NCBI GenBank assembly: GCA_937930845.1
Contig: CALHBJ010000011.1
Location: 1-64,000 of the forward strand
Source of the DNA: an uncultured Rhizobiaceae group bacterium
Lineage (GTDB): Bacteria > Pseudomonadota > Alphaproteobacteria > Rhizobiales > Rhizobiaceae
Reading direction: 5' to 3'
Length of the DNA stretch: 64,000 bases
Position 1 is the stretch's first letter. Each line of letters opens with the position of its first letter. Position numbers and translations under genes: made by a program. The notes below the pieces were generated by a model. The model was not told the origin of the DNA. It did not search any database and worked only from the letters and a program-made list of their open reading frames with translations. Below are positions 28,243-50,763 of the stretch, one piece after another.

Positions 28243-29322
28243 CTATCCGTAAGGGAATGGCCAATTGCGTAATTTCTCCTTTGTGATCTGCCACAGCCGG
28301 GCAAACCCGTGGGGTTCCAAAATAAGAAAGGCGATGATCAGGGAGCCGATCAAGACGGACGTAACGTGCTCCATCGTTGCCGCATTGATGCCGAGATTAA
28401 AGAACCCTGGCAAAGCACGCATGATGATCGGCAATACGAAAATGAAAAACGCGCCCATGAAACAGCCGATCAGGCTGCCCAGCCCACCAATGATTACCAT
28501 GAACAGAACCAGGAATGATTTGTTGATGTCGAAGCTTTCAACCTCTGCCGAACCCAGCCACAGGAACACCATCATCGCACCGGCAACACCGCAATAGTAA
28601 GACGACATGGCAAAAGCGGAAAGCTTGGCATAGAGCGGGCGAATGCCCATCAGTTCCGCGGCAATATCCATGTCGCGGATCATCATCCAGGAACGGCCAA
28701 TGCGACCGCGAATGACATTGGAAGCGATCCAGGTGAGGAACACGACAATCGACAAGACAATCAGATATCGGTGTACCGGATCACCCGATGCCGGATCAAT
28801 GGGCAGGCCAAACAGCTTGGGCGTGGTGGAATCAATCGCCCCGGAATCGTTGTAATTGTAGAGCCAGGGAATGCGAATAAACGACCATTCCAGAAAGAAC
28901 TGGGCAGCCAGCGTGGTGATCGCCAGATACAGACCTTTAATGCGCAGCGACGGCAGACCAAAAAGAATGCCAATACCCGCCGCGAAAAACCCCGAAATGA
29001 AGAAGTGAATGATGATGTTCACATCGGGGAAAATGGTCACCAGCTTATAACAGGCATAGGCCCCCACGCCCATAAACGCCCCCGTGCCGAGGGACAATTG
29101 CCCCGAATAGCCGGTCAGGATGTTCAACCCAACAGCCGCCAGCGCCCAGATCAGGAAGGGGATCATGATCGAGTTCATCCAGAAATCATTGGCCAGAAGC
29201 GGCACCCCGATAAAGGCAAATGCGATGATGATGCCCAGGCCAATCCTGTCCTGAAGGATCGGAAAGATCGCCTGATCGTCCCGGTAATTGGTCTTGAATT
29301 GTCCAGCTTCGCGATAAAACAT
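28243..29322 (-). CDS. livM: Branched-chain-type ABC transporter permease LivM
   Basis: A 359-aa polytopic protein with about 9-10 hydrophobic segments. LivM signatures: ALAAVGLNILTGYSGQLSLGTGAFMGVGAYA and the cytoplasmic loop RIGRSWMMIRDMDIAAELMGIRPLYAKLSAFAMSS (EAA-type coupling helix), then VIIGGLGSLIGCFMGAFFI. It forms the transmembrane heterodimer with LivH. The start at 29322 has a GGGGAG upstream at about 11 nt. It lies between livK and livH. Confidence 0.92.
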   Translation of the reverse strand: MFYREAGQFKTNYRDDQAIFPILQDRIGLGIIIAFAFIGVPLLANDFWMNSIMIPFLIWALAAVGLNILTGYSGQLSLGTGAFMGVGAYACYKLVTIFPDVNIIIHFFISGFFAAGIGILFGLPSLRIKGLYLAITTLAAQFFLEWSFIRIPWLYNYNDSGAIDSTTPKLFGLPIDPASGDPVHRYLIVLSIVVFLTWIASNVIRGRIGRSWMMIRDMDIAAELMGIRPLYAKLSAFAMSSYYCGVAGAMMVFLWLGSAEVESFDINKSFLVLFMVIIGGLGSLIGCFMGAFFIFVLPIIMRALPGFFNLGINAATMEHVTSVLIGSLIIAFLILEPHGFARLWQITKEKLRNWPFPYG

Positions 29323-29366
29323 TAGGAACCGAACTCCCCGGAGTAAGTCTTCATACGCATGTCAGA

Positions 29367-30317
29367 TCACACCCGCTCGATAATTTTTTCGCCGAACAAT
29401 CCTTGCGGACGGAACAGCAGGAAGATGAGAGCCAGCACATAGGCAAACCAGGCTTCGACACCGCCGCCCACAAGGCCACCCCAATAGACTTCGGCCAGTT
29501 TTTCGCCGATGCCGATGATCAGTCCGCCGACAATGGCACCGGGGATCGATGTGAACCCGCCCAAAATCAGCACCGCCAAAGCCTTGAATGCGATGATCTC
29601 CAGGGCAAAGGACACATCAGATCGTGCGCCCCACATGATGCCTGTCACCAGCGCCACAACGCCCGCAGCAAACCACACGATTGCCCAAATCTGGTTAAGT
29701 GAAATGCCCACGGACAGCGCCGCATTATGGTCATCTGCCACGGCGCGCAGGGCACGACCGATCCGGGTCTTGGAAAAGAAAATCGCCAGCGCAATCACCA
29801 TCAGCGAGGCGATCACCACAGCCGCAATGTCCAGGTGTTGCAGCGATACCAACCCGCCCAGAATATCAAAATCGGTAACACCCGTTGGCAGGCCCAGTTC
29901 CTCGGTAATCATGGATTTCGGCTCACCGCCGAACACCGTTTCGCCCACGCCTTTGAGAAACAGGGTCAACCCAATCGTGGCCATCAGCAAGATTGCATCA
30001 TGTTGCCCAACCAGCGGGCGCAACACGACCCGCTCAATACCAATGGCCAAAATGGCCATCACACCAAGTGTCAGGAACAGGGCAATCCAGGCGGGAATGC
30101 CCAATGCGTGCAGGCCCACCATGGTCAATGCCGCAAACACCACCATGATGCCCTGGGCAAAATTGAAAACGCCGGAGGCTTTGTAAATCAACACGAAACC
30201 CAGCGCGATCAGCGCATAGAGCGTGCCGGCAACAAAGCCTTCCCAGATCAGTTGCACAAAAAAGTCCGGCGCCGATGCCATATCAACAAACGGATTGATA
30301 AAAATGTCATGCAACAT
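29367..30317 (-). CDS. livH: Branched-chain-type ABC transporter permease LivH
   Basis: A 316-aa membrane protein with about 8 TM segments. Family marks: GTLYALIALGFVLIYKASGVFNFAQG near residue 30, TRIGRALRAVADDHNAALSVGISLNQI (coupling loop), and AFKALAVLILGGFTSIPGAIVGGLIIGI. It pairs with LivM. The start at 30317 has AGGAG 10 nt upstream. The membrane microprotein gene at 30348-30512 lies directly upstream, and livG upstream of that. Confidence 0.92.
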   Translation of the reverse strand: MLHDIFINPFVDMASAPDFFVQLIWEGFVAGTLYALIALGFVLIYKASGVFNFAQGIMVVFAALTMVGLHALGIPAWIALFLTLGVMAILAIGIERVVLRPLVGQHDAILLMATIGLTLFLKGVGETVFGGEPKSMITEELGLPTGVTDFDILGGLVSLQHLDIAAVVIASLMVIALAIFFSKTRIGRALRAVADDHNAALSVGISLNQIWAIVWFAAGVVALVTGIMWGARSDVSFALEIIAFKALAVLILGGFTSIPGAIVGGLIIGIGEKLAEVYWGGLVGGGVEAWFAYVLALIFLLFRPQGLFGEKIIERV

Positions 30318-30347
30318 GATGGCTTATCTCCTGTGTCACCGGGAATA

Positions 30348-30512
30348 TCATGAAGGGGCTTGCACCAGTTCCGGAAACAGGCCAGCCAATCCCAGCGCAA
30401 TCATCAGCACCGCGATGGCAAATCGCATCCAGCGCGGCACCATGATCAGCGCCACTCCGGCGGCCAGCAAAAAAATTGATACGGCCTTTGGGTAGTCGGT
30501 CAAAATATCCAT
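30348..30512 (-). CDS. 54-aa membrane microprotein, DUF3096-like, between livG and livH
   Basis: A short frame below the usual ORF cut-off. It starts MDILTDYPKAVSIFLLAAGV and contains ALIMVPRWMRFAIAVLMIALG before GLFPELVQAPS. Two hydrophobic helices (about residues 11-25 and 30-46) flank a VPRW turn, the layout of DUF3096-type small membrane proteins (...GILILIMPRLLNYIVAIYLI-like). It begins 12 nt after the livG stop with GGTGGA 6 nt before the ATG. Its stop is 30 nt before the livH start, so it fills an otherwise empty gap in the operon. A role in assembling or regulating the permease is possible but unproven. Confidence 0.7.
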   Translation of the reverse strand: MDILTDYPKAVSIFLLAAGVALIMVPRWMRFAIAVLMIALGLAGLFPELVQAPS

Positions 30513-30524
30513 CTTGATCCACCA

Positions 30525-31361
30525 TTAATGGGGCACCCCCAGATAGGCATCGATAACTTCCTGGCTGGATTGCACTTCCGCCGGTTCCCCGTCCGCAATC
30601 TTCTTACCATAGTCCAGCACAACCACCCGGTCGGCCAGATCCATCACAACGCCCATGTCATGTTCAATCAGCGCAATCGTGGTGCCGAATTGCCGGTTCA
30701 CATCAATGATGAACCGGCTCATATCTTCTTTTTCTTCCAGGTTCATCCCGGCCATGGGCTCATCCAGCAATAGCAGGTCAGGCTCCAGTGCCAGCGCCCG
30801 GCCAAGCTCCACACGCTTTTGCAATCCATAGGGCAACTTACCCACCGGCTGGCGGCGGATATGAGCGATTTCCAGAAAATCAATAATCTCTTCGACCCGA
30901 CGCCGGTGCTCAATTTCCTCGTTCCGCGCGGGACCGAAGTAAAACATCTGGGTCAGAAAATTCTGTTTCATTTTCAACGACCGGCCCGACATGATGTTGT
31001 CGAGTGTCGACATGCCGGTAAACAGGGCAACATTCTGGAATGTTCGCGCGATGCCCGATGCCGCCGCCTCATAGGGCCTCATGCGTGACCGCTTTTCACC
31101 GCGAAATGTAATCGAGCCTTCCTGGGGATGGTAAAAGCCGTTGATCACGTTGAGCATCGACGTTTTGCCAGCGCCGTTGGGCCCAATAATCGCCCGCACT
31201 TCGCCTTTGAGAATGTTGAACGAAATATCTTCAATTGCCGTGACACCACCAAACCGCAAGGTCACATTCTCGACTTTCAGCAACTCATCGCCCTGCGCAA
31301 TGCCATCATTGCGACCGGAACTAAGATCCATGCCATGGATTTTTGAATCATGAGCGTTCAC
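30525..31361 (-). CDS. livG: Branched-chain-type ABC transporter ATP-binding protein LivG
   Basis: 278 aa. Walker A GPNGAGKTS at residues 60-68, a long helical insert (GRSLKMKQNFLTQMFYFGPARNEE) typical of LivG, a signature region LPYGLQKRVELGRALAL and Walker B LLLLDEPMAGMN. The C-terminal tail PAEVQSSQEVIDAYLG is standard for LivG. The start is GTG at 31361 within a GTGA overlap with the stop of the upstream DUF4268 gene; GGAGG lies 7 nt before it. A later ATG (residue 11) is possible. Confidence 0.92.
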   Translation of the reverse strand: MNAHDSKIHGMDLSSGRNDGIAQGDELLKVENVTLRFGGVTAIEDISFNILKGEVRAIIGPNGAGKTSMLNVINGFYHPQEGSITFRGEKRSRMRPYEAAASGIARTFQNVALFTGMSTLDNIMSGRSLKMKQNFLTQMFYFGPARNEEIEHRRRVEEIIDFLEIAHIRRQPVGKLPYGLQKRVELGRALALEPDLLLLDEPMAGMNLEEKEDMSRFIIDVNRQFGTTIALIEHDMGVVMDLADRVVVLDYGKKIADGEPAEVQSSQEVIDAYLGVPH

Positions 31362-31373
31362 TCCGCAGCCTCC
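31358..31373. repeat. 16-bp direct repeat, copy 1 (DUF4268/livG joint)
   Basis: TCACTCCGCAGCCTCC on the plus strand, identical to the copy at 32341-32356 and 983 nt from it. On the coding strand it reads GGAGGCTGCGGAGTGA: an SD, the codons for EAAE's end, and a GTGA stop/start overlap. Confidence 0.85.
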
Positions 31374-32344
31374 AGTTCAAGTTGGTGTTCAGGCGGCTCA
31401 AAACTAAGAATTCTAGGGGTAAAACACTCTGCAAATGCCACAACTTTGTCAGCAAGCCAGTCATGCTGCTCTTGCCAATTACTTTCATCTTTCACAATTA
31501 CATCATTGAGTTGATGGAAAATGCGAGAGGCCTTCTGTTCATCCATTCTCATCCAGTGCAAGTCGAAGTCAAACGACTTCTCAATTTCGCGTCTGGACAG
31601 TTGCAGTTCATCAAAAGTTTGCTTTGCATGAGAACCGCCAAGATAACATTCAACAGCCAGATAATTGTCACGCCGTCCTGCTTTGGCAGAGATTGAATAA
31701 CCAGATTTACCGATGGAGAAGCTATTGTAATAGCCCTTCGGCGCGCTGGTAATGGAAAGTCCGCTCTTCTTCTTCGCCAGCACCTCGTGGAAAGCTTCCC
31801 AATAGGTCACATAGAATTTGTTACGTTCGCTCATTTCTCGATTGAATGTATTTGCACTAGATATTTTAGACCATTCATTGGGTCTCGCGACTACATCAAA
31901 CCGGGGCGCAGGTAAGCTATCGCCAATTTTATAAGCTTCGAGTTCGATAGCGAAAAAACTATGATCTACAGTTGTATTACGATTAAGCCAGTCTATCGCA
32001 GCACGGTGATCTTCCCGCACTTGAGCAGATATCCAGACAATTACAGCTCTCTCATCCAGACCAGCAAGGTATGTAATAATCTGACCAAGGTGGCCATGGT
32101 CTGTCGCACCTAATTGATTCTCTATGAGTACCAATCGATCTTCCGCATCACGCGCAACGATATCGGCAATAAAATTACCAATACGTTTTTCAGTATCTTC
32201 AAGTTCAATATCACCCAGCCAGATTGCCTCACCCAATAAATTGAGATTCTCGGTCTTGGCCAGCCATGGCGTGAAGCCATGGGCTTCATGCTGCCAAATC
32301 TCCTTAACCGGCACAGATTGAAGCCTGCCTAAATCGGGAATCAC
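31358..32344 (-). CDS. DUF4268 protein with PD-(D/E)XK nuclease-like motif, inserted in the liv operon
   Basis: 328 aa. The N-terminal half carries a nuclease-fold signature: GNFIADIVARDAEDRLVLIENQLGATDHGHLGQI, with D61, E75 and Q77 as likely D-x(n)-ExQ residues, as in DNA-repair/restriction-associated PD-(D/E)XK proteins. The C-terminal half (about 165-320) fits DUF4268 (FYVTYWEAFHEVL, GKSGYSISAKAG, LAVECYLGG). DUF4268 proteins are often linked with defence or mobile loci. The gene is visibly AT-richer than its neighbours. It overlaps the acyl-CoA synthetase stop and the livG start by 4 nt each, and a 16-bp repeat marks both joints. Nuclease activity is inferred only. Confidence 0.78.
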   Translation of the reverse strand: MIPDLGRLQSVPVKEIWQHEAHGFTPWLAKTENLNLLGEAIWLGDIELEDTEKRIGNFIADIVARDAEDRLVLIENQLGATDHGHLGQIITYLAGLDERAVIVWISAQVREDHRAAIDWLNRNTTVDHSFFAIELEAYKIGDSLPAPRFDVVARPNEWSKISSANTFNREMSERNKFYVTYWEAFHEVLAKKKSGLSITSAPKGYYNSFSIGKSGYSISAKAGRRDNYLAVECYLGGSHAKQTFDELQLSRREIEKSFDFDLHWMRMDEQKASRIFHQLNDVIVKDESNWQEQHDWLADKVVAFAECFTPRILSFEPPEHQLELEAAE

Positions 32345-32356
32345 TCCGCAGCCTCC
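32341..32356. repeat. 16-bp direct repeat, copy 2 (acyl-CoA synthetase/DUF4268 joint)
   Basis: Identical to 31358-31373; the flanking bases differ on both sides. It encodes the last residues and stop of the acyl-CoA synthetase plus the SD and GTG start of the DUF4268 gene. Confidence 0.85.
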
Positions 32357-34314
32357 TTCATGCTTTCGGCTGGGTAGGTTTTTGCGTCGGCGATTTTTAC
32401 TGTCGCTGAGATATTACCTTTGCGGCCATCTTCGAAGACCACTTCTGTGTTGACGAATTTTTCTTCCGATCCGTCATAAAGCGCATCGATGAGATCATCA
32501 TATCGCTCATTGATCAGGCTGCGGCGTACTTTCATGGTGCGCGTCAGTTCGCCATCATCCGCGTCCAGTTCCTTGTGCAAAACAAGAAAACGGTGAATTT
32601 GAGCCCCCGCCACCCGCTCTTCCGAGGCCAGATCCTTGTTCACCTGATCCACATGTTCGCCCATCATTTTGTAGACCAGCGGATGGTTCGCCAATTCCTG
32701 ATAGGATGCATAGGCAATGTTGTTGCGTTCCGCCCAGTTGGCGACCGGTTGCAAATCAATATTCAGCATCACGGCCGCATAATCACGCCCGTCACCCAGC
32801 GCCACGGCTTCTTTGATATTGGGGAAGAATTTCAGCTTGTTCTCAATATATTTGGGCGGGAACATTGAGCCATTATTCAGCCGACCCACATCCTTGGCGC
32901 GGTCGATAATGCGCAAATGCCCTTCGGCATCGAGGAAACCGGCATCGCCTGTTTTCACCCAGCCATCCTTGGACTTGGTGTCTTTGGTGGCTTTGGCGTT
33001 CTTGTAATAGCCCATAAAGACGCCCGGCGAACGGTAAAGCACCTCACCGCTGTCGGTGATTTCGATTTCCACATCCGGCGAAGGCGTCCCAACCGTGTCA
33101 GCGGAAATCTGTCCGTCCGGTTGGGCGGTGATGTAAACGCTTGCTTCCGTCTGGCCGTAAAGCTGCTTCAGATTAAGACCCAGCGACCGGTAAAAGCGGA
33201 AAATCTCAGGCCCGATGGCCTCGCCCGCCGTATAGCCCACCTTCATGCGGGTCATGCCCAAACGGTTTTTAAGCGGCCCATATACGAGGAAATCGCCAAT
33301 GCGATACAACAGCCGATCGATCAATGAGATATCTTTTTCACCATTCAAGATCCGCTCGCCAACCCGGTTGGCCACCCCCAGAAAATAGTGAAACATTTTC
33401 TGTTTCAGTTTTCCCGCATCTTCCATACGCACCATAATATCGGTGAGCAATCCTTCAAACACCCGCGGTGGTGCGAAAAAATAGGTTGGCGCAATCTCGC
33501 GCCGGTTCTCGGTCACCGTGTCCGGGCTTTCGGGGCAACACACACAATATCCTGCGGTTAAAGACTGGCCATAGGAGAAAATATGATCCCCCACCCATGC
33601 CAGCGGCAGATAGGCGATGATTTCATCGCTATAGTCAAACCCGTCAAACTTGTTGGCATTCAGCGATGATATGACCAGATTGTCATAGGACAGCATCACA
33701 CCCTTGGGCTTGCCCGTGGTGCCGGATGTGTAAAGCATGACCGAAAGGTCTTCGCCTTTTCCCTTGTCGATTTCCGCCAACCACTTTTGGCCTATCGCCG
33801 GATCGGATTCCAACAAAGCCTGGCCATCGCGTTGCAAGGCCTGAACATGGTGGAGAAACGGCTCATCATAATCGCCCAGTCCGCGCTGCCAGTCGTAAAT
33901 GATGTATTCAAGTTTCGGCAGCTGGTCCTTGATGGAAAGCAGCTTGTCCACCTGCTCCTGATCCTGAACAACGGCAAAACGCACTTCCGCATGTTGCAGA
34001 ACATAAACCATCTCGTCGGCAACCGCGTCCGCATAAACAGGAATGGGCACACCACCGAGCGCCTGAACAGCACAAAAGCTCCAATACAAGACGGGGCGAT
34101 TGCCACCGACAATGGCGACCTTGTCGTCGCGCGTTAAGCCAATGGATTGCAGCCCCACAGAAAGGTTGCGGATTTCCGCCAACATTTCCCGCCAGGTCCA
34201 GCTTTGCCAGATGCCAAAATCCTTGTGGCGCATCGCGGGCCGTTGACCGAATTTCTCTGCATTTTCCAGCAGGAATTTCGGGAATGTATCACATCCTCCG
34301 GTGGCGTTTGCCAT
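32341..34314 (-). CDS. AMP-dependent long-chain acyl-CoA synthetase
   Basis: 657 aa, full-length ANL enzyme of the long-chain (FadD15-like) group. The AMP/phosphate loop LYTSGTTGKPKG lies at about residues 194-205, followed by AYLPLAWVGDHIFSYGQSL, LYGQTEASVYITAQ, and the hinge region GWVKTGDAGFLDAEGHLRIIDRAKDV. It joins a carboxylic acid to CoA via an acyl-adenylate. Start at 34314 has GGAGGACG upstream. As the first gene of the liv transcription unit it probably activates what the transporter imports. Ends in -EAAE. Confidence 0.88.
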   Translation of the reverse strand: MANATGGCDTFPKFLLENAEKFGQRPAMRHKDFGIWQSWTWREMLAEIRNLSVGLQSIGLTRDDKVAIVGGNRPVLYWSFCAVQALGGVPIPVYADAVADEMVYVLQHAEVRFAVVQDQEQVDKLLSIKDQLPKLEYIIYDWQRGLGDYDEPFLHHVQALQRDGQALLESDPAIGQKWLAEIDKGKGEDLSVMLYTSGTTGKPKGVMLSYDNLVISSLNANKFDGFDYSDEIIAYLPLAWVGDHIFSYGQSLTAGYCVCCPESPDTVTENRREIAPTYFFAPPRVFEGLLTDIMVRMEDAGKLKQKMFHYFLGVANRVGERILNGEKDISLIDRLLYRIGDFLVYGPLKNRLGMTRMKVGYTAGEAIGPEIFRFYRSLGLNLKQLYGQTEASVYITAQPDGQISADTVGTPSPDVEIEITDSGEVLYRSPGVFMGYYKNAKATKDTKSKDGWVKTGDAGFLDAEGHLRIIDRAKDVGRLNNGSMFPPKYIENKLKFFPNIKEAVALGDGRDYAAVMLNIDLQPVANWAERNNIAYASYQELANHPLVYKMMGEHVDQVNKDLASEERVAGAQIHRFLVLHKELDADDGELTRTMKVRRSLINERYDDLIDALYDGSEEKFVNTEVVFEDGRKGNISATVKIADAKTYPAESMKEAAE

Positions 34315-34471
34315 GTCCAGTGCGTCCTCCCAAACGACTAGCAGACCAACACACTGTGCGGCCCAATATGTGCGGGGACATTGCCCCCTTAGTTATTCTC
34401 ATTTTTTAGCACGGCAGGCGCGAAGGCAAGCAATTGTTTGAATAACTTTAGTTCAAGTGCACAACCTGTGC

Positions 34472-35521
34472 TCACCCAAGCCAATTCACCCATCTACCGT
34501 GATAATCCGCCCGGCCCAGGGCGGTTTCGATTGCGCCCGGCCATTGCTTCATTTTGATCCCGGCACCGGGGGACTGCCCATCGGCCTCAAATTGCAACCA
34601 CACCAGGGGTGCCTGGTGCGTTGCCTGCGCACCGGCGGCGCATATCAGTTCCTCGCCGCGCGCTTTATCTTCATCCGCCAAATATTGCCAGGCAATCGTT
34701 GAATACACCAACGTACATTGGCCGGGGGTATTGCTGTTCAAATTCTGGTCCAACCATGTAACAGCATCAGCTATGTCCAATTGGGCAGGATTGGCACGGG
34801 CCAACATAACAGCAGCATCAAACCGGGCAATACGTTCACTTTGATCCGGCCACAGATAAGAGCGAAGCCGCAACAGTTCGCCATCTTTGGTCACATCCAA
34901 CGGATTGATGTCACAGCCCGCGCGTGATGCGATATGAATGTCAGCCAGCGCAGGGGAAGGCCCGGACCAGTCTGGCCGCAGGTGCAATGCGCTTCTCAAA
35001 TCACCGGCACTGGTTTTGCCCAATGTGTAACGGAACCGGTCCAATTGAAGGTTTAGCCCTGCCGAAGCGCCAATTTCCAATAGTCTAAAGGGCAGTTCAT
35101 ACTGGTTCGCTAATCGCATCAATGCTGGCATCAGGACGCTGGACCGCTGCACCTCATTGGTTTGAGGCGGCGATTTCATCCACTCCAGCAAGAATTGGGC
35201 ATTGATCTCCAGCGCGTCGGCAATATGTTTCCACGCCGGAGCCTCACCGGATTTGGGGTCATACGCGGCTGCAAATTCATCATCAGCCCGGGTCAATACC
35301 AGAGCCTGAAGCCCGCCACACAATCGCAGGGGCAAATTATCACCTGATGCATCGGCCTTGCCCGGCCAGTTCAAACAAAGCGCCCCAACTTCACTTGTCT
35401 CATCAAGATGAGCGCCCAAGGTCCGGCACAGGGCCGCAGTGAACGGCGATCCCAGACTGTCACATGCCTCAGCCTGGCCCATGAAGATATCACGGATCGC
35501 CAAGTGTGTGCTGCGCGACAC
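34472..35521 (-). CDS. DUF2332 family protein
   Basis: About 349 aa. The pattern IRDIFMGQAEACDSLGSPFTAALCRTLG at the N-terminus, then RLLEIGASAGLNLQLDRFRY (an SAM-methyltransferase-like glycine motif), RAGCDINPLDVTKDGELLRLRSYLWPDQSERIARFDAA and QCTLVYSTIAWQYL match DUF2332. The family has no proven function; the GASAGLNL stretch suggests a Rossmann-like nucleotide or SAM site. I choose GTG 35521, just after the stop of the upstream gene. An earlier start at 35560 would overlap the oxidoreductase gene by 38 nt. It follows the oxidoreductase gene and is probably co-transcribed. Confidence 0.75.
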   Translation of the reverse strand: MSRSTHLAIRDIFMGQAEACDSLGSPFTAALCRTLGAHLDETSEVGALCLNWPGKADASGDNLPLRLCGGLQALVLTRADDEFAAAYDPKSGEAPAWKHIADALEINAQFLLEWMKSPPQTNEVQRSSVLMPALMRLANQYELPFRLLEIGASAGLNLQLDRFRYTLGKTSAGDLRSALHLRPDWSGPSPALADIHIASRAGCDINPLDVTKDGELLRLRSYLWPDQSERIARFDAAVMLARANPAQLDIADAVTWLDQNLNSNTPGQCTLVYSTIAWQYLADEDKARGEELICAAGAQATHQAPLVWLQFEADGQSPGAGIKMKQWPGAIETALGRADYHGRWVNWLG

Positions 35522-35522
35522 C

Positions 35523-38500
35523 TTACTCAGCTGCTTCCAGGGTTTTGAGCCCATCGACATTTTTCAAGCCGGCCCGCAGGCGCATGCGCTCGGCATTTGC
35601 CTTTTCCACATTCGCCTCTTTGACATGGCCGAACCCGCGAATGAGTTGCGGATAGGTCGCCAACCGAATGGCCGCATCGAGTGTCTTGGGCTTCAACTCG
35701 GTTTCGATCTCGTCCAACACGTCTTCGTATTCAGCCAACAGATTGCGTTCCATTTTACGTTCCGCAGTGTAGCCAAAGATGTCAAAAACGCCGCCACGCA
35801 AAAACCGCATCCGGGCGAGCCAGCCATAGGCCTTCATCATCCATGGTCCGTATTGCTTCTTGATCAGATGCCCCTTGGAATCCCGATTTGAAAACAGCGG
35901 CGGAGCCAGATGGAATTCAAAAGAATCCCAGCTTTCAAACTGTGTTTTCACCTGTTCCAAAAACGCACCATCGGAATATAGGCGGGCCACTTCATACTCG
36001 TCCTTGATCGCCATCAGCTTGAACAGATTATGTGCCACGGCTTCGGTCAACGCACCCTTGCTGGAACCGGACGCCTCTTCTGCGGCACGAATGCGCGCGA
36101 CACGGGCTGCAAACCGGGCGGCGTAATTCTTGTTTTGATAGGCGGTCAATTGTTGAACCCGGCGTTCAATGGCTTCGTCCACCGTTTCAGATTTTTTGCG
36201 ATGTTCCAGAACATCTGCCACCGGCGTTTCGCTAACAGGCAACAGGCTCCTGTCATGTGCGGCAACCCGCCCCCACTGAAACGCCATCTGGTTCATGGGA
36301 ATTTGCACACCGTTGAGTTCAATGGCGCGCATAATGGCTTGTTCGCTCACCGGCAGACCGCCATTTTGCCAGGCAAATCCCAACATGAACATGTTCGACG
36401 CAATGGCATCGCCCATCAGCGCAACCGCCAGTTTTTCTGCCTCAACGACATCTGTACGATCTTTGCCCGCCATCTTTTCCAGCGTCTTGATAATCCGCTG
36501 AGTCGGGAAGGAGAAATCCACATTATGGGTAAATTCACCTGAGAGTTTCTCGTGGCTGTTCAACACAACTTTGGTGCGGCCTTTTTGAATAGAGCCAAGC
36601 ACTTTTTGAGTTGAAGCGGTCACCATATCGCACCCAAGGATGAGATCGGCACCCGATGCTGCAATGCGAATGGATTTGATATCTTCCGGCGTTGGCGCGA
36701 TGCGCAAATGGCTGGCCACTTCCCCGCCTTTTTGAGCAAGCCCGGCCATATCGATAATGGCAGAACCTTTGCCTTCCAGATGCGCCGCCATGCCCAAAAC
36801 GGCACCAACGGTAACAACACCTGTTCCACCAACACCGGTAACGATGACCCCATATGAGCCAGTAAGTTTCGGCAATGTGGGCTGCGGAACAGTGGGCAAT
36901 TCAGCCGAAAGGCCCGGCGCGCTTTTGCCTTTTTTCAACTGCGCGCCATGGACGGTGACAAAGCTGGGGCAAAAGCCATTGATACAGGAGAAGTCTTTGT
37001 TACACGAAGACTGGTCAATCTGGCGCTTGCGGCCAAACTCGGTATCGACGGCACCCACCGCGACACAGTTGGATTTCACACCGCAATCACCGCAGCCTTC
37101 ACACACCTGCTCGTTGATCACAATGCGCTTATCCGGGTCCGGGAATGCGCCGCGCTTGCGGCGGCGGCGTTTCTCGCTGGCACAGGTCTGGTCATAGATC
37201 ATGACCGTCAGACCCTTGGTCGCGGCCAGTTCCTTTTGCACTTCATCCAGTTGTGAGCGGTGGTGAATCGTTGTTCCAAGCGGCCAGGAAATCTGGCTGG
37301 AATATTTCTCAGGTTCATCAGAGACAATGACCACCCGTTTAGCACCTTCGGCAGCGACTTGCGCCGCAATATCCCACGGCGTCAATGAACCTTCATTGGG
37401 CTGGCCACCGGTCATCGCCACCGCATCATTGAACAATATCTTATAGGTAATTGAAGCGCCGGATGCGGCGGCTGCGCGCACTGCCAGATAGCCGGAATGG
37501 TTATAGGTGCCGTCGCCCAGATTCTGGAACACATGATCGCGTTTTGAGAAGTGATGTTCACCAAGCCAATTGGCCCCTTCCCCACCCATTTGGGTAAATC
37601 CTTCGGTGCTCCGGTCCATCCAGATCGACATGAAATGGCACCCGATGCCAGCATAGGCGCGGCTGCCTTCCGGCACATGGGTGGACGTGTTGTGGGGGCA
37701 ACCGGCGCAAAAATAGGGAACCCGATTTGCCACGCCCTTGGTAGCAGCCAAACCGGCCTGGGCATCTTTCAGCGCCTTCACATGGGCCGATAACTTGCGG
37801 TCCTTGGCAAATTTGTTCAGCCGTTCGCCAACCGCGATTGCAATCGTGTTCGAGTCCAGTTGGGCCTTGGCCGGGAACAGCCAATTCCCCTTCTCGTCCT
37901 TCTTGCCGATGATCAAAGGCGGTTTGGCGATGCCATAAAGCGCCTCGATCAACTGGCTTTCGATCAATGACCGCTTTTCTTCAACAACGATAATCTGATC
38001 GAGCCCTTTGGCGAATTTACGCAACTCAGCCTGGGACAATGGCCACACGCACCCAACCTTATAAAGCCGCATGCCCAGATTGTTGGCGCGCACCTCATCC
38101 AGGCCCAGATCATCCATTGCCTGGCGCACATCAAGATAGGATTTACCGGCGGTGATCACGCCGATGCGTGGCTTGCGCCCTCCGGCGAGGATGGTCTTGT
38201 TGACGTTGTTTGCTGCAAGCCAGTCGAGCACTGCGTTGTGCTTATGCTCCACCAGCCGCTCCTCCTGGGGGAGCATTGTGTCACCGGGGCGGATGTACAA
38301 TCCGTCCGCCGGGCGCCGGTCGACCTTCGGATCCACCAGCTTAATTCGGTCGGGGCGACCATCGATAACAGCCGTAGACTCAATCGTGTCTTTGACACAT
38401 TTAATGCCCACCCACACTCCGGCATAGCGCGACAAGCCAAGGCCAAGCACACCGTAGTCGAGTATTTCCTGCACCCCGGCAGGGGACAGGACGGGCATGC

Positions 38501-39086
38501 CATAATTGACAAAGGTAAATTCGCTTTGGTGAGCAGTGGTGGAGCTTTCCGCCACGTGATCATCGCCCATGAGCGCCAGCACGCCGCCATTTGGAGATGT
38601 TCCAGCCATATTGGCGTGACGGAACACATCGCCAGACCGGTCTACACCCGGCCCCTTGCCATACCAGATGCTGAACACACCATCATACTTGCCTTCGCCG
38701 CGCATTTCGGACTGCTGGGCACCCCAGATGGCCGTGGCAGCAAGGTCTTCGTTCAGCCCTGGCTCAAACACGATATCGCTTTTGACAAGACGATTTTGTT
38801 CCTTCCACATCGCCAAATCCAGCCCGCCAATAGGCGAGCCGCGATAGCCCGTAATATATCCAGCCGTGTTGAGGCCTTTGTTTGCATCACGCGCTTTCTG
38901 CATCAGCATCAGCCGCACTATTGCCTGGGTGCCGGTGATGAACACCTGCCCCTTTTCAAGGTCATATTTATCGTCGAGATGAACGGGCTTCAGCTTTGCA
39001 ACACCATTGGTCGCCGCAACAAGCTTGCCGGTCGCTGTTTTCGAAACAGACTTTTTCGAACCGGTTTTCCTGTCTTTCGTAGCCAT
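35523..39086 (-). CDS. Indolepyruvate ferredoxin oxidoreductase, fused alpha/beta type
   Basis: 1187 aa, full length for the single-chain bacterial form. Order: TPP-dependent pyrimidine-binding domain (FITGTQAIVRLMLMQ, GYITGYRGSPIGGLD), TPP-binding domain (ACPHNTSTHVPEGS-like Cys-rich segment, GIGCHFMSIWMDRS, MGGEGANWLGEHHFS), an Fe-S segment (VCEGCGDCGVKSNC, SCNKDFSC), and a C-terminal gamma/POR domain (GVGGTGVVTVGAVLGMAAH, AQKGGEVASHLRIA). It oxidatively decarboxylates arylpyruvates to aryl-acetyl-CoA. Start at 39086 (MATKDRK) has GGAG 9 nt upstream; the longer frame lacks support. Next to the acyl-CoA ligases and liv genes it suggests aromatic amino-acid or related acid breakdown. Ends -EAAE. 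Confidence 0.9.
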   Translation of the reverse strand: MATKDRKTGSKKSVSKTATGKLVAATNGVAKLKPVHLDDKYDLEKGQVFITGTQAIVRLMLMQKARDANKGLNTAGYITGYRGSPIGGLDLAMWKEQNRLVKSDIVFEPGLNEDLAATAIWGAQQSEMRGEGKYDGVFSIWYGKGPGVDRSGDVFRHANMAGTSPNGGVLALMGDDHVAESSTTAHQSEFTFVNYGMPVLSPAGVQEILDYGVLGLGLSRYAGVWVGIKCVKDTIESTAVIDGRPDRIKLVDPKVDRRPADGLYIRPGDTMLPQEERLVEHKHNAVLDWLAANNVNKTILAGGRKPRIGVITAGKSYLDVRQAMDDLGLDEVRANNLGMRLYKVGCVWPLSQAELRKFAKGLDQIIVVEEKRSLIESQLIEALYGIAKPPLIIGKKDEKGNWLFPAKAQLDSNTIAIAVGERLNKFAKDRKLSAHVKALKDAQAGLAATKGVANRVPYFCAGCPHNTSTHVPEGSRAYAGIGCHFMSIWMDRSTEGFTQMGGEGANWLGEHHFSKRDHVFQNLGDGTYNHSGYLAVRAAAASGASITYKILFNDAVAMTGGQPNEGSLTPWDIAAQVAAEGAKRVVIVSDEPEKYSSQISWPLGTTIHHRSQLDEVQKELAATKGLTVMIYDQTCASEKRRRRKRGAFPDPDKRIVINEQVCEGCGDCGVKSNCVAVGAVDTEFGRKRQIDQSSCNKDFSCINGFCPSFVTVHGAQLKKGKSAPGLSAELPTVPQPTLPKLTGSYGVIVTGVGGTGVVTVGAVLGMAAHLEGKGSAIIDMAGLAQKGGEVASHLRIAPTPEDIKSIRIAASGADLILGCDMVTASTQKVLGSIQKGRTKVVLNSHEKLSGEFTHNVDFSFPTQRIIKTLEKMAGKDRTDVVEAEKLAVALMGDAIASNMFMLGFAWQNGGLPVSEQAIMRAIELNGVQIPMNQMAFQWGRVAAHDRSLLPVSETPVADVLEHRKKSETVDEAIERRVQQLTAYQNKNYAARFAARVARIRAAEEASGSSKGALTEAVAHNLFKLMAIKDEYEVARLYSDGAFLEQVKTQFESWDSFEFHLAPPLFSNRDSKGHLIKKQYGPWMMKAYGWLARMRFLRGGVFDIFGYTAERKMERNLLAEYEDVLDEIETELKPKTLDAAIRLATYPQLIRGFGHVKEANVEKANAERMRLRAGLKNVDGLKTLEAAE

Positions 39087-39191
39087 ACCAAATCGCTCCA
39101 TGGTCGGATTAAACCCTCGCCTGATAGGTAAGGATTGTTGACCTTTATTTCTTCCCCGTCAACAATCAGCCGGCATTGATTTGCGCCTATC

Positions 39192-50125: not shown

Positions 50126-50763
50126 GCAACGATCACCACCACGATCATGATCATGATCATGATCACGACCATTCCCACCTCAGCGAAATGGATGCGCGGG
50201 TGCGGGCACTAGAAAGCCTGTTGGCAGAAAAGGGATATATCGATCCGGCTGCACTGAATGAAATTGTCGAAATTTATGAAACCCGCATTGGCCCCCAAAA
50301 CGGCGCAAGCGTTATCGCCAAAGCTTGGGTCGATGAGGGCTTCAACACCTGGTTGATGGAAGATGCCACGGCGGCCATCCATTCGCTTGGATTTACCAGC
50401 CGTCAGGGTGAACACATGGTGGCCGTGGCCAATACCGAACACACCCACCACATGGTCGTTTGCACACTTTGTTCTTGTTATCCATGGTCGGTTCTTGGCC
50501 TGCCGCCCACCTGGTATAAATCTCCCCCTTACCGGTCCCGCGCTGTCATCGATCCCCGTGGCGTGTTGGCCGATTTCGGTCTGGTACTGCCTGATGATGT
50601 CGCCGTGGAGGTGCATGATTCAACCGCAGAAACACGCTATCTGGTTGTTCCCAAACGGCCCGATGGCACGCAAGGTTGGGATGAAAAGCAACTGGCCAGA
50701 CTGGTGACACGAAATGCCATGATCGGCACAGGACTGGCCTTGAATCCGGCGGACCTGACATGA
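50122..50763 (+). CDS. nthA: Nitrile hydratase alpha subunit, cobalt type, with His/Asp-rich N-terminus
   Basis: 213 aa. The metal-binding loop is [10 protein letters not shown] with C114, C117, S118 and C119; Thr at position 115 of the CTLCSC motif is the cobalt-type signature (iron-type enzymes have Ser). NHase alpha hydrates nitriles to amides. Residues 5-19 are an unusual alternating His/Asp run ([15 protein letters not shown]), a likely metal-binding extension. Start at 50122 overlaps the PuuD-like gene's stop. nthB starts in an ATGA overlap at the other end, so all are translationally coupled. Confidence 0.94.

Follow-up and report, generated by a model that had tools for sequence, protein, structure and literature searches.

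A DUF4268 gene inserted at a stop/start overlap of a liv operon and bordered by two identical 16-bp modules

The DUF4268 gene and its borders

The stretch of DNA analysed here, which we call the window, is 64,000 nt long (contig CALHBJ010000011.1, positions 1 to 64,000) and belongs to the genome of an uncultured Rhizobiaceae bacterium, searched over 3,759,524 bases. On its minus strand, a gene recognised by the DUF4268 and PDC-S11 profiles stands between an acyl-CoA synthetase gene and a livG-type gene, with a stop/start overlap at either end:

32341..34314, minus strand: upstream host gene, AMP-binding acyl-CoA synthetase, 657 aa (29 relatives at 55-85% identity)
32341..32356, minus strand: 16-bp module at the acyl-CoA synthetase/DUF4268 border, with Shine-Dalgarno (SD) GGAGG at 32352-32356, EAAE codons, TGA stop and GTG start
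31358..32344, minus strand: DUF4268 (PF14088) / PADLOC PDC-S11 gene, 328 aa, assigned from profile matches, GTG start
31904..32290, minus strand: NucS/EndoMS-like PD-(D/E)XK-type nuclease domain, residues 19-147
31412..31813, minus strand: DUF4268 domain, residues 178-311, an alpha/beta fold that resembles YbjN and type III secretion chaperones
31374..32340, minus strand: foreign stretch between the module copies, 967 bp (983 bp with one copy)
31358..31373, minus strand: 16-bp module at the DUF4268/livG border, SD at 31369-31373
30525..31361, minus strand: downstream host gene, livG-type branched-chain amino acid ABC ATPase, 278 aa (PF00005, PF12399)
GTGA overlaps of the DUF4268 gene, minus strand: its start with the acyl-CoA synthetase stop, its stop with the livG start

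Searching the window for TCACTCCGCAGCCTCC revealed exact copies at 31358-31373 and 32341-32356, no third copy in the 64 kb at up to 3 mismatches, and no copy beyond these two in the 3,759,524-base genome, confirming an earlier note on this DNA that had reported two exact copies and no others. The coding (minus) strand of either copy reads GGAGGCTGCGGAGTGA, and its content agrees with that note's description: the GGAGG Shine-Dalgarno doubles as codons for E-A and is followed by A-E-stop of the upstream gene, with the GTG of the next gene contained in GTGA. Identity between the copies ends abruptly at 16 bp (preceding bases ...CATGAA versus ...TGAACT; following bases TTCCCG versus ACGCTC), and the limits of the repeat are those of the functional module, which begins with the first G of the SD and closes with the stop's final base. 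The 967 bp in between consist of the DUF4268 gene alone, beginning with its second codon and ending with the last codons that are its own. Taken alone, an exact 16-mer repeat in 64 kb is not rare: the window holds 7 such pairs (5 distinct repeats), and 30 random windows drawn from a first-order Markov model averaged 1.5, with up to 8 in a single window. The unusual point is that the copies sit exactly at both ends of one foreign gene. Another of the exact 16-mer repeats is a short direct tandem repeat of GATCAT at 50143-50165. Elsewhere in the window, LEAAE is also the ending of a large 2-oxoacid:ferredoxin oxidoreductase-like gene at 35523-39101 (PF01558, PF20169), behind which lies a DUF2332 gene at 34472-35560.

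The composition of the DUF4268 gene sets it apart from its surroundings: it has 45.2% GC and a GC3 of 0.413, as compared to 0.585-0.683 for eight other measured genes. Among the 273 ORFs in 452 kb of the genome that have at least 250 codons (mean GC3 0.597, sd 0.041), its frame ranks lowest with a GC3 of 0.419, so that the earlier description of the inserted gene as AT-richer is borne out. The flanking host genes, with GC3 values of 0.623 and 0.634, are normal for the genome.

The acyl-CoA synthetase/livG junction in relatives

We searched 60 relatives, with one genome per species searchable, and found both neighbour genes in 29 of them at the thresholds used (11 congeners and 18 members of the family and order). 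The acyl-CoA synthetase and livG genes are adjacent in all 29; the largest match-to-match distance is 228 nt (G052), and in the other relatives it is at most 81 nt. All 11 congeners have an [A/G]TGA overlap at this junction. Of the 30 acyl-CoA synthetase loci read, our own included, 24 have EAAE as the C-terminal residues and 4 have EAAQ. Relatives thus show the uninterrupted junction, with the same kind of module, that the earlier note had looked to as support for an insertion, and one genome (G002) carries the identical 16-mer in single copy. No DUF4268 homologue was detected at E<=0.001 in any of 14 congeners, some of whose assemblies are incomplete (61-100%), while across the order 9 of 397 genomes, this one included, carry a homologue at E<=1e-30. 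In one genome of the same family (G027), the homologue is split across two reading frames.

With 29 of 29 sites empty and no homologue in the congeners, it is well supported that a single foreign gene entered exactly at the acyl-CoA synthetase/livG GTGA overlap in the lineage of this genome, and that it left the neighbour genes intact and the stop/start coupling in place on both sides. The scarless insertion of a foreign, nuclease-like gene proposed in the earlier note therefore stands, and neither outcome that would have spoken against it, vertical presence across relatives or neighbour-like GC, was observed. The locus combines the features of an operon insertion: an operon empty in relatives, the same strand and a foreign composition. 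We rejected the repeat alone as proof of insertion, because native operons have near-identical consecutive modules.

Restriction-like genes inside operons are already known. Excerpts of PMC10273834 and PMC4615327 describe the insertion of PabI-family R-M genes into his and glutamate synthase operons, where likewise a restriction-like gene lies on the same strand in a metabolic operon and is missing from related genomes. The present case differs in that a lone gene, with no methyltransferase, sits precisely within a stop/start overlap of 4 bp and is accompanied by a 16-bp junction copy; the borders described in those excerpts involve the replacement of 4 bp and a TAAA at the boundary. R-M genes that insert with a long and variable duplication of the target (Nobusato et al., 2000, as cited in an excerpt of PMC3031569) likewise end up between direct target repeats, but the repeat at the DUF4268 gene has 16 bp only and coincides with the translation-coupling module. 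The exact 16-base host-junction copy is thus unusual, and the border unusually tidy. The locus offers a clean example of a solitary restriction-like gene that has settled in a core operon without damage, with 11 congeners that have both genes and an empty site.

The protein, its family and other operon sites

The protein matches PF14088 over residues 178-311 (E 6.2e-24; 85 bits, gathering cut-off 27) and PADLOC PDC-S11 over nearly its full length (E 6.5e-110; 365 bits; residues 1-312 on positions 1-312 of the 318-position candidate model), and it shares both matches with the known PDC-S11 and DUF4268 families. It departs from these relatives in its C-terminal tail, which from about residue 313 is unconserved among 8 aligned homologues and in this protein terminates in a host-like EAAE, and in sequence, the best homologues among the matches listed being 43-44% identical.

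Residues E20, E52, D61, E75, N76 and Q77 are invariant in 61 sequences, with the spacing D-14-E-2, and the nuclease-core fold agrees with a NucS-like domain; the D61...E75-N-Q77 pattern that the earlier note called PD-(D/E)XK-like is conserved, and nuclease and defence roles are predicted. Q77 stands where the PD-(D/E)XK lysine is expected. The conserved residues of NucS are E127, D160, E174 and K176. NucS/EndoMS has ExK, whereas the DUF4268 protein has ExQ plus the DUF4268 domain. NucS/EndoMS structures (2vld, 5gke) are matched over the nuclease half only, from chain residue 126 on, and the NucS/EndoMS profile NF003270 gave 12 bits against a cut-off of 216 (E 0.081), well below membership. 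A sequence search of solved structures returned nothing useful. We infer a stand-alone restriction-like effector against foreign or modified DNA; relatives variously adjoin type I restriction genes, stand without close partners, occur on plasmids and virus-like contigs and in several cases lie in core operons.

None of the homologues listed is a close donor: the plasmid (64) and phage (4) records are all below 60% identity, and 60 virus-like contigs encode relatives. In a tree of the family, the window protein falls in no supported clade, and its nearest rows by path are those beside type I R-M genes. Among 143 usable DUF4268 genes, an NTGA overlap with a neighbouring ORF was found at the start in 18, at the end in 20 and at both in 10. 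Seventeen of the downstream neighbours group with L084's HsdR-type protein, and the upstream neighbours in L084 and L152 match a type I specificity-subunit domain. At five loci (L081, L084, L094, L147 and L152), the DUF4268 gene is framed by an HsdS-like and an HsdR-like gene and overlaps each by 4 bp, these neighbours being profile-checked on both sides in L084 and upstream in L152; there it gives the impression of a fourth component of type I restriction systems.

Core operons house other members. In two Paracoccus species (L105, L121) and an alphaproteobacterial MAG (L151), a DUF4268 gene separates pyrB from pyrC, as it does in L144, where other sequence also stands between pyrB and the gene; such a gene directly follows uvrB in L082 and a succinate dehydrogenase flavoprotein gene in L119. 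The tree places L151 apart from the Paracoccus rows (L105/L121), with which it forms no sister pair, and this suggests that they entered pyrB-pyrC separately. Together, these several sites (acyl-CoA synthetase-livG, pyrB-pyrC, after uvrB and after the succinate dehydrogenase gene) suggest that DUF4268/PDC-S11 genes need no adjoining R-M partner and can borrow housekeeping expression. The pyrB-pyrC junction is highly variable in an alphaproteobacterial family (L230-L233, L260-L289): among the 22 comparable loci listed, 2 (L280, L282) have direct ATGA coupling, and in 19 a cargo of roughly 200-1,300 bp intervenes, its final stop overlapping the start of pyrC.

Origin of the second junction module

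Our preferred reading, to which we give a probability of about 0.68, is that a foreign DUF4268/NucS-like gene was inserted at the GTGA overlap and that the host junction was copied during insertion. The 16-bp junction of the host, with its SD, last codons and stop/start, would have been duplicated at the second border, most simply if the incoming DNA recombined at the short module; recombination between an incoming module and the host module could explain why the repeat ends where the module ends. Such an exchange would supply start, stop, SD and frame together, would restore the livG Shine-Dalgarno at once and would place the DUF4268 gene under liv-operon transcription. No clear promoter of its own was found in 30500-34500, where promoter-like sites occur at the level of chance (4 versus 3.9 expected), and to judge from its position the gene should be co-transcribed with the liv genes.

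A repeat exact to the module would, however, be expected under convergence too. The gene could have arrived with an unrelated 3' end, or with an EAAE tail from a donor operon, and selection for an SD before livG could then have produced the EAAE/GGAGGC module, which is common in Alphaproteobacteria; we regard this as somewhat unlikely. Convergence would require a chance match to the host copy at all wobble positions, and the match is 16 of 16, including the two alanine codons and the GTG start. Of the 1326 pairs formed by 52 filtered coupled junctions in 452 kb of this genome, ours is the only identical one: none of the other 1325 is identical, and the next best differ at 2 bases. We also found 35 GGAGGCNGCNGANTGA modules in 15 genomes and none in a backward control; by hand count, 2 of 38 other within-genome GGAGGCNGCNGANTGA pairs are identical in these 15 genomes. 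EAAE, on the other hand, is the commonest four-residue ending of the coupled genes sampled, with 4 of 52 when the two at this locus are included and 2 of 50 among the other junctions, which favours convergence. The product of 2/50 and 2/38 puts full convergence at about 0.2% a priori, and copying is therefore favoured, though not settled.

Native operons show how far such resemblance can go. In this genome, a fumarase-family gene of normal GC3 (PF05681; C11 292701-293686, L301:8701-9686) has EAAE/SD modules at both ends, GGAGGCTGCAGAATGA and GGAAGCCGCAGAATGA, which differ at 2 of 16 bases and are spaced exactly 983 bp apart, the same as at the DUF4268 insertion. The spacing match of this native pair is a coincidence, and the pair is a convergent look-alike. 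In G040, phnJ (PF06007; L222:1501-2355) likewise carries EAAE/SD modules at its two ends, at a spacing of 851 bp, the upstream gene ending in LAEAAE and phnJ in REAAE. Since such modules occur at neighbouring junctions of native operons, the resemblance at our locus can be partly convergent. Convergence also gains from the genes upstream of DUF4268 in L084 (a type I specificity subunit) and L094, which end in LEAAE, and from the cargo genes between pyrB and pyrC, which are coupled without a copied junction at all 19 loci with cargo (junctions of one locus differ by 5 of 16 at the least and by 9.21 on average, as compared to 8.69 across loci).

None of 117 usable homologous DUF4268 loci has a start/stop repeat longer than 11 bp. 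A copied module was likewise absent from all 10 other doubly coupled loci, which include the close kin L105 and L121 as well as L144, whose upstream ORF (290 aa) may not be a gene; the 5' and 3' borders of one locus are no more alike than those of different loci (mean distance 7.5 versus 7.64 of 12). The earlier proposal of a translation-coupling cassette as the carrier of the gene thus went unsupported, and we rejected a family-wide mobile cassette of this kind. A transposon, integron cassette or other self-mobile element that made a 16-bp target duplication is scarcely credible: foreign DNA between short direct target repeats does resemble a target-site duplication, but the 967 bp contain the DUF4268 gene only, none of 25 inverted-repeat pairs listed for 29000-35000 joins the two ends, other family members lack a comparable repeat, and a transposon-like duplication would require an in-frame landing by a gene that lacks a start and stop of its own. 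Near-identical repeats at overlapping junctions can be convergent, and should therefore not be taken as footprints of mobile elements without a junction control. It is also highly improbable that the insertion happened elsewhere and that a pre-formed acyl-CoA synthetase-DUF4268-livG segment came from another species by homologous recombination; such donors would be missed with one genome per species searchable, but the flanking genes have a GC3 normal for the genome, and nothing of similar size lies between both genes in the 29 relatives.

A bolder reading, which we consider distinctly unlikely, is that convergently evolved EAAE/SD modules of the form GGAGGCNGCNGARTGA are short, ready-made recombination adaptors in Alphaproteobacteria, the repeat being a fresh footprint of their use. 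Single defence genes could then move from one operon to another in frame, coupled and promoterless, because possible donor (hsdS-DUF4268-hsdR) and recipient operons would both carry GGAGGCNGCNGARTGA. In L151, the DUF4268 gene ends in AGVMLG and pyrB in VGVMV, a likeness suggestive to the eye in which 7 of 16 bases differ.
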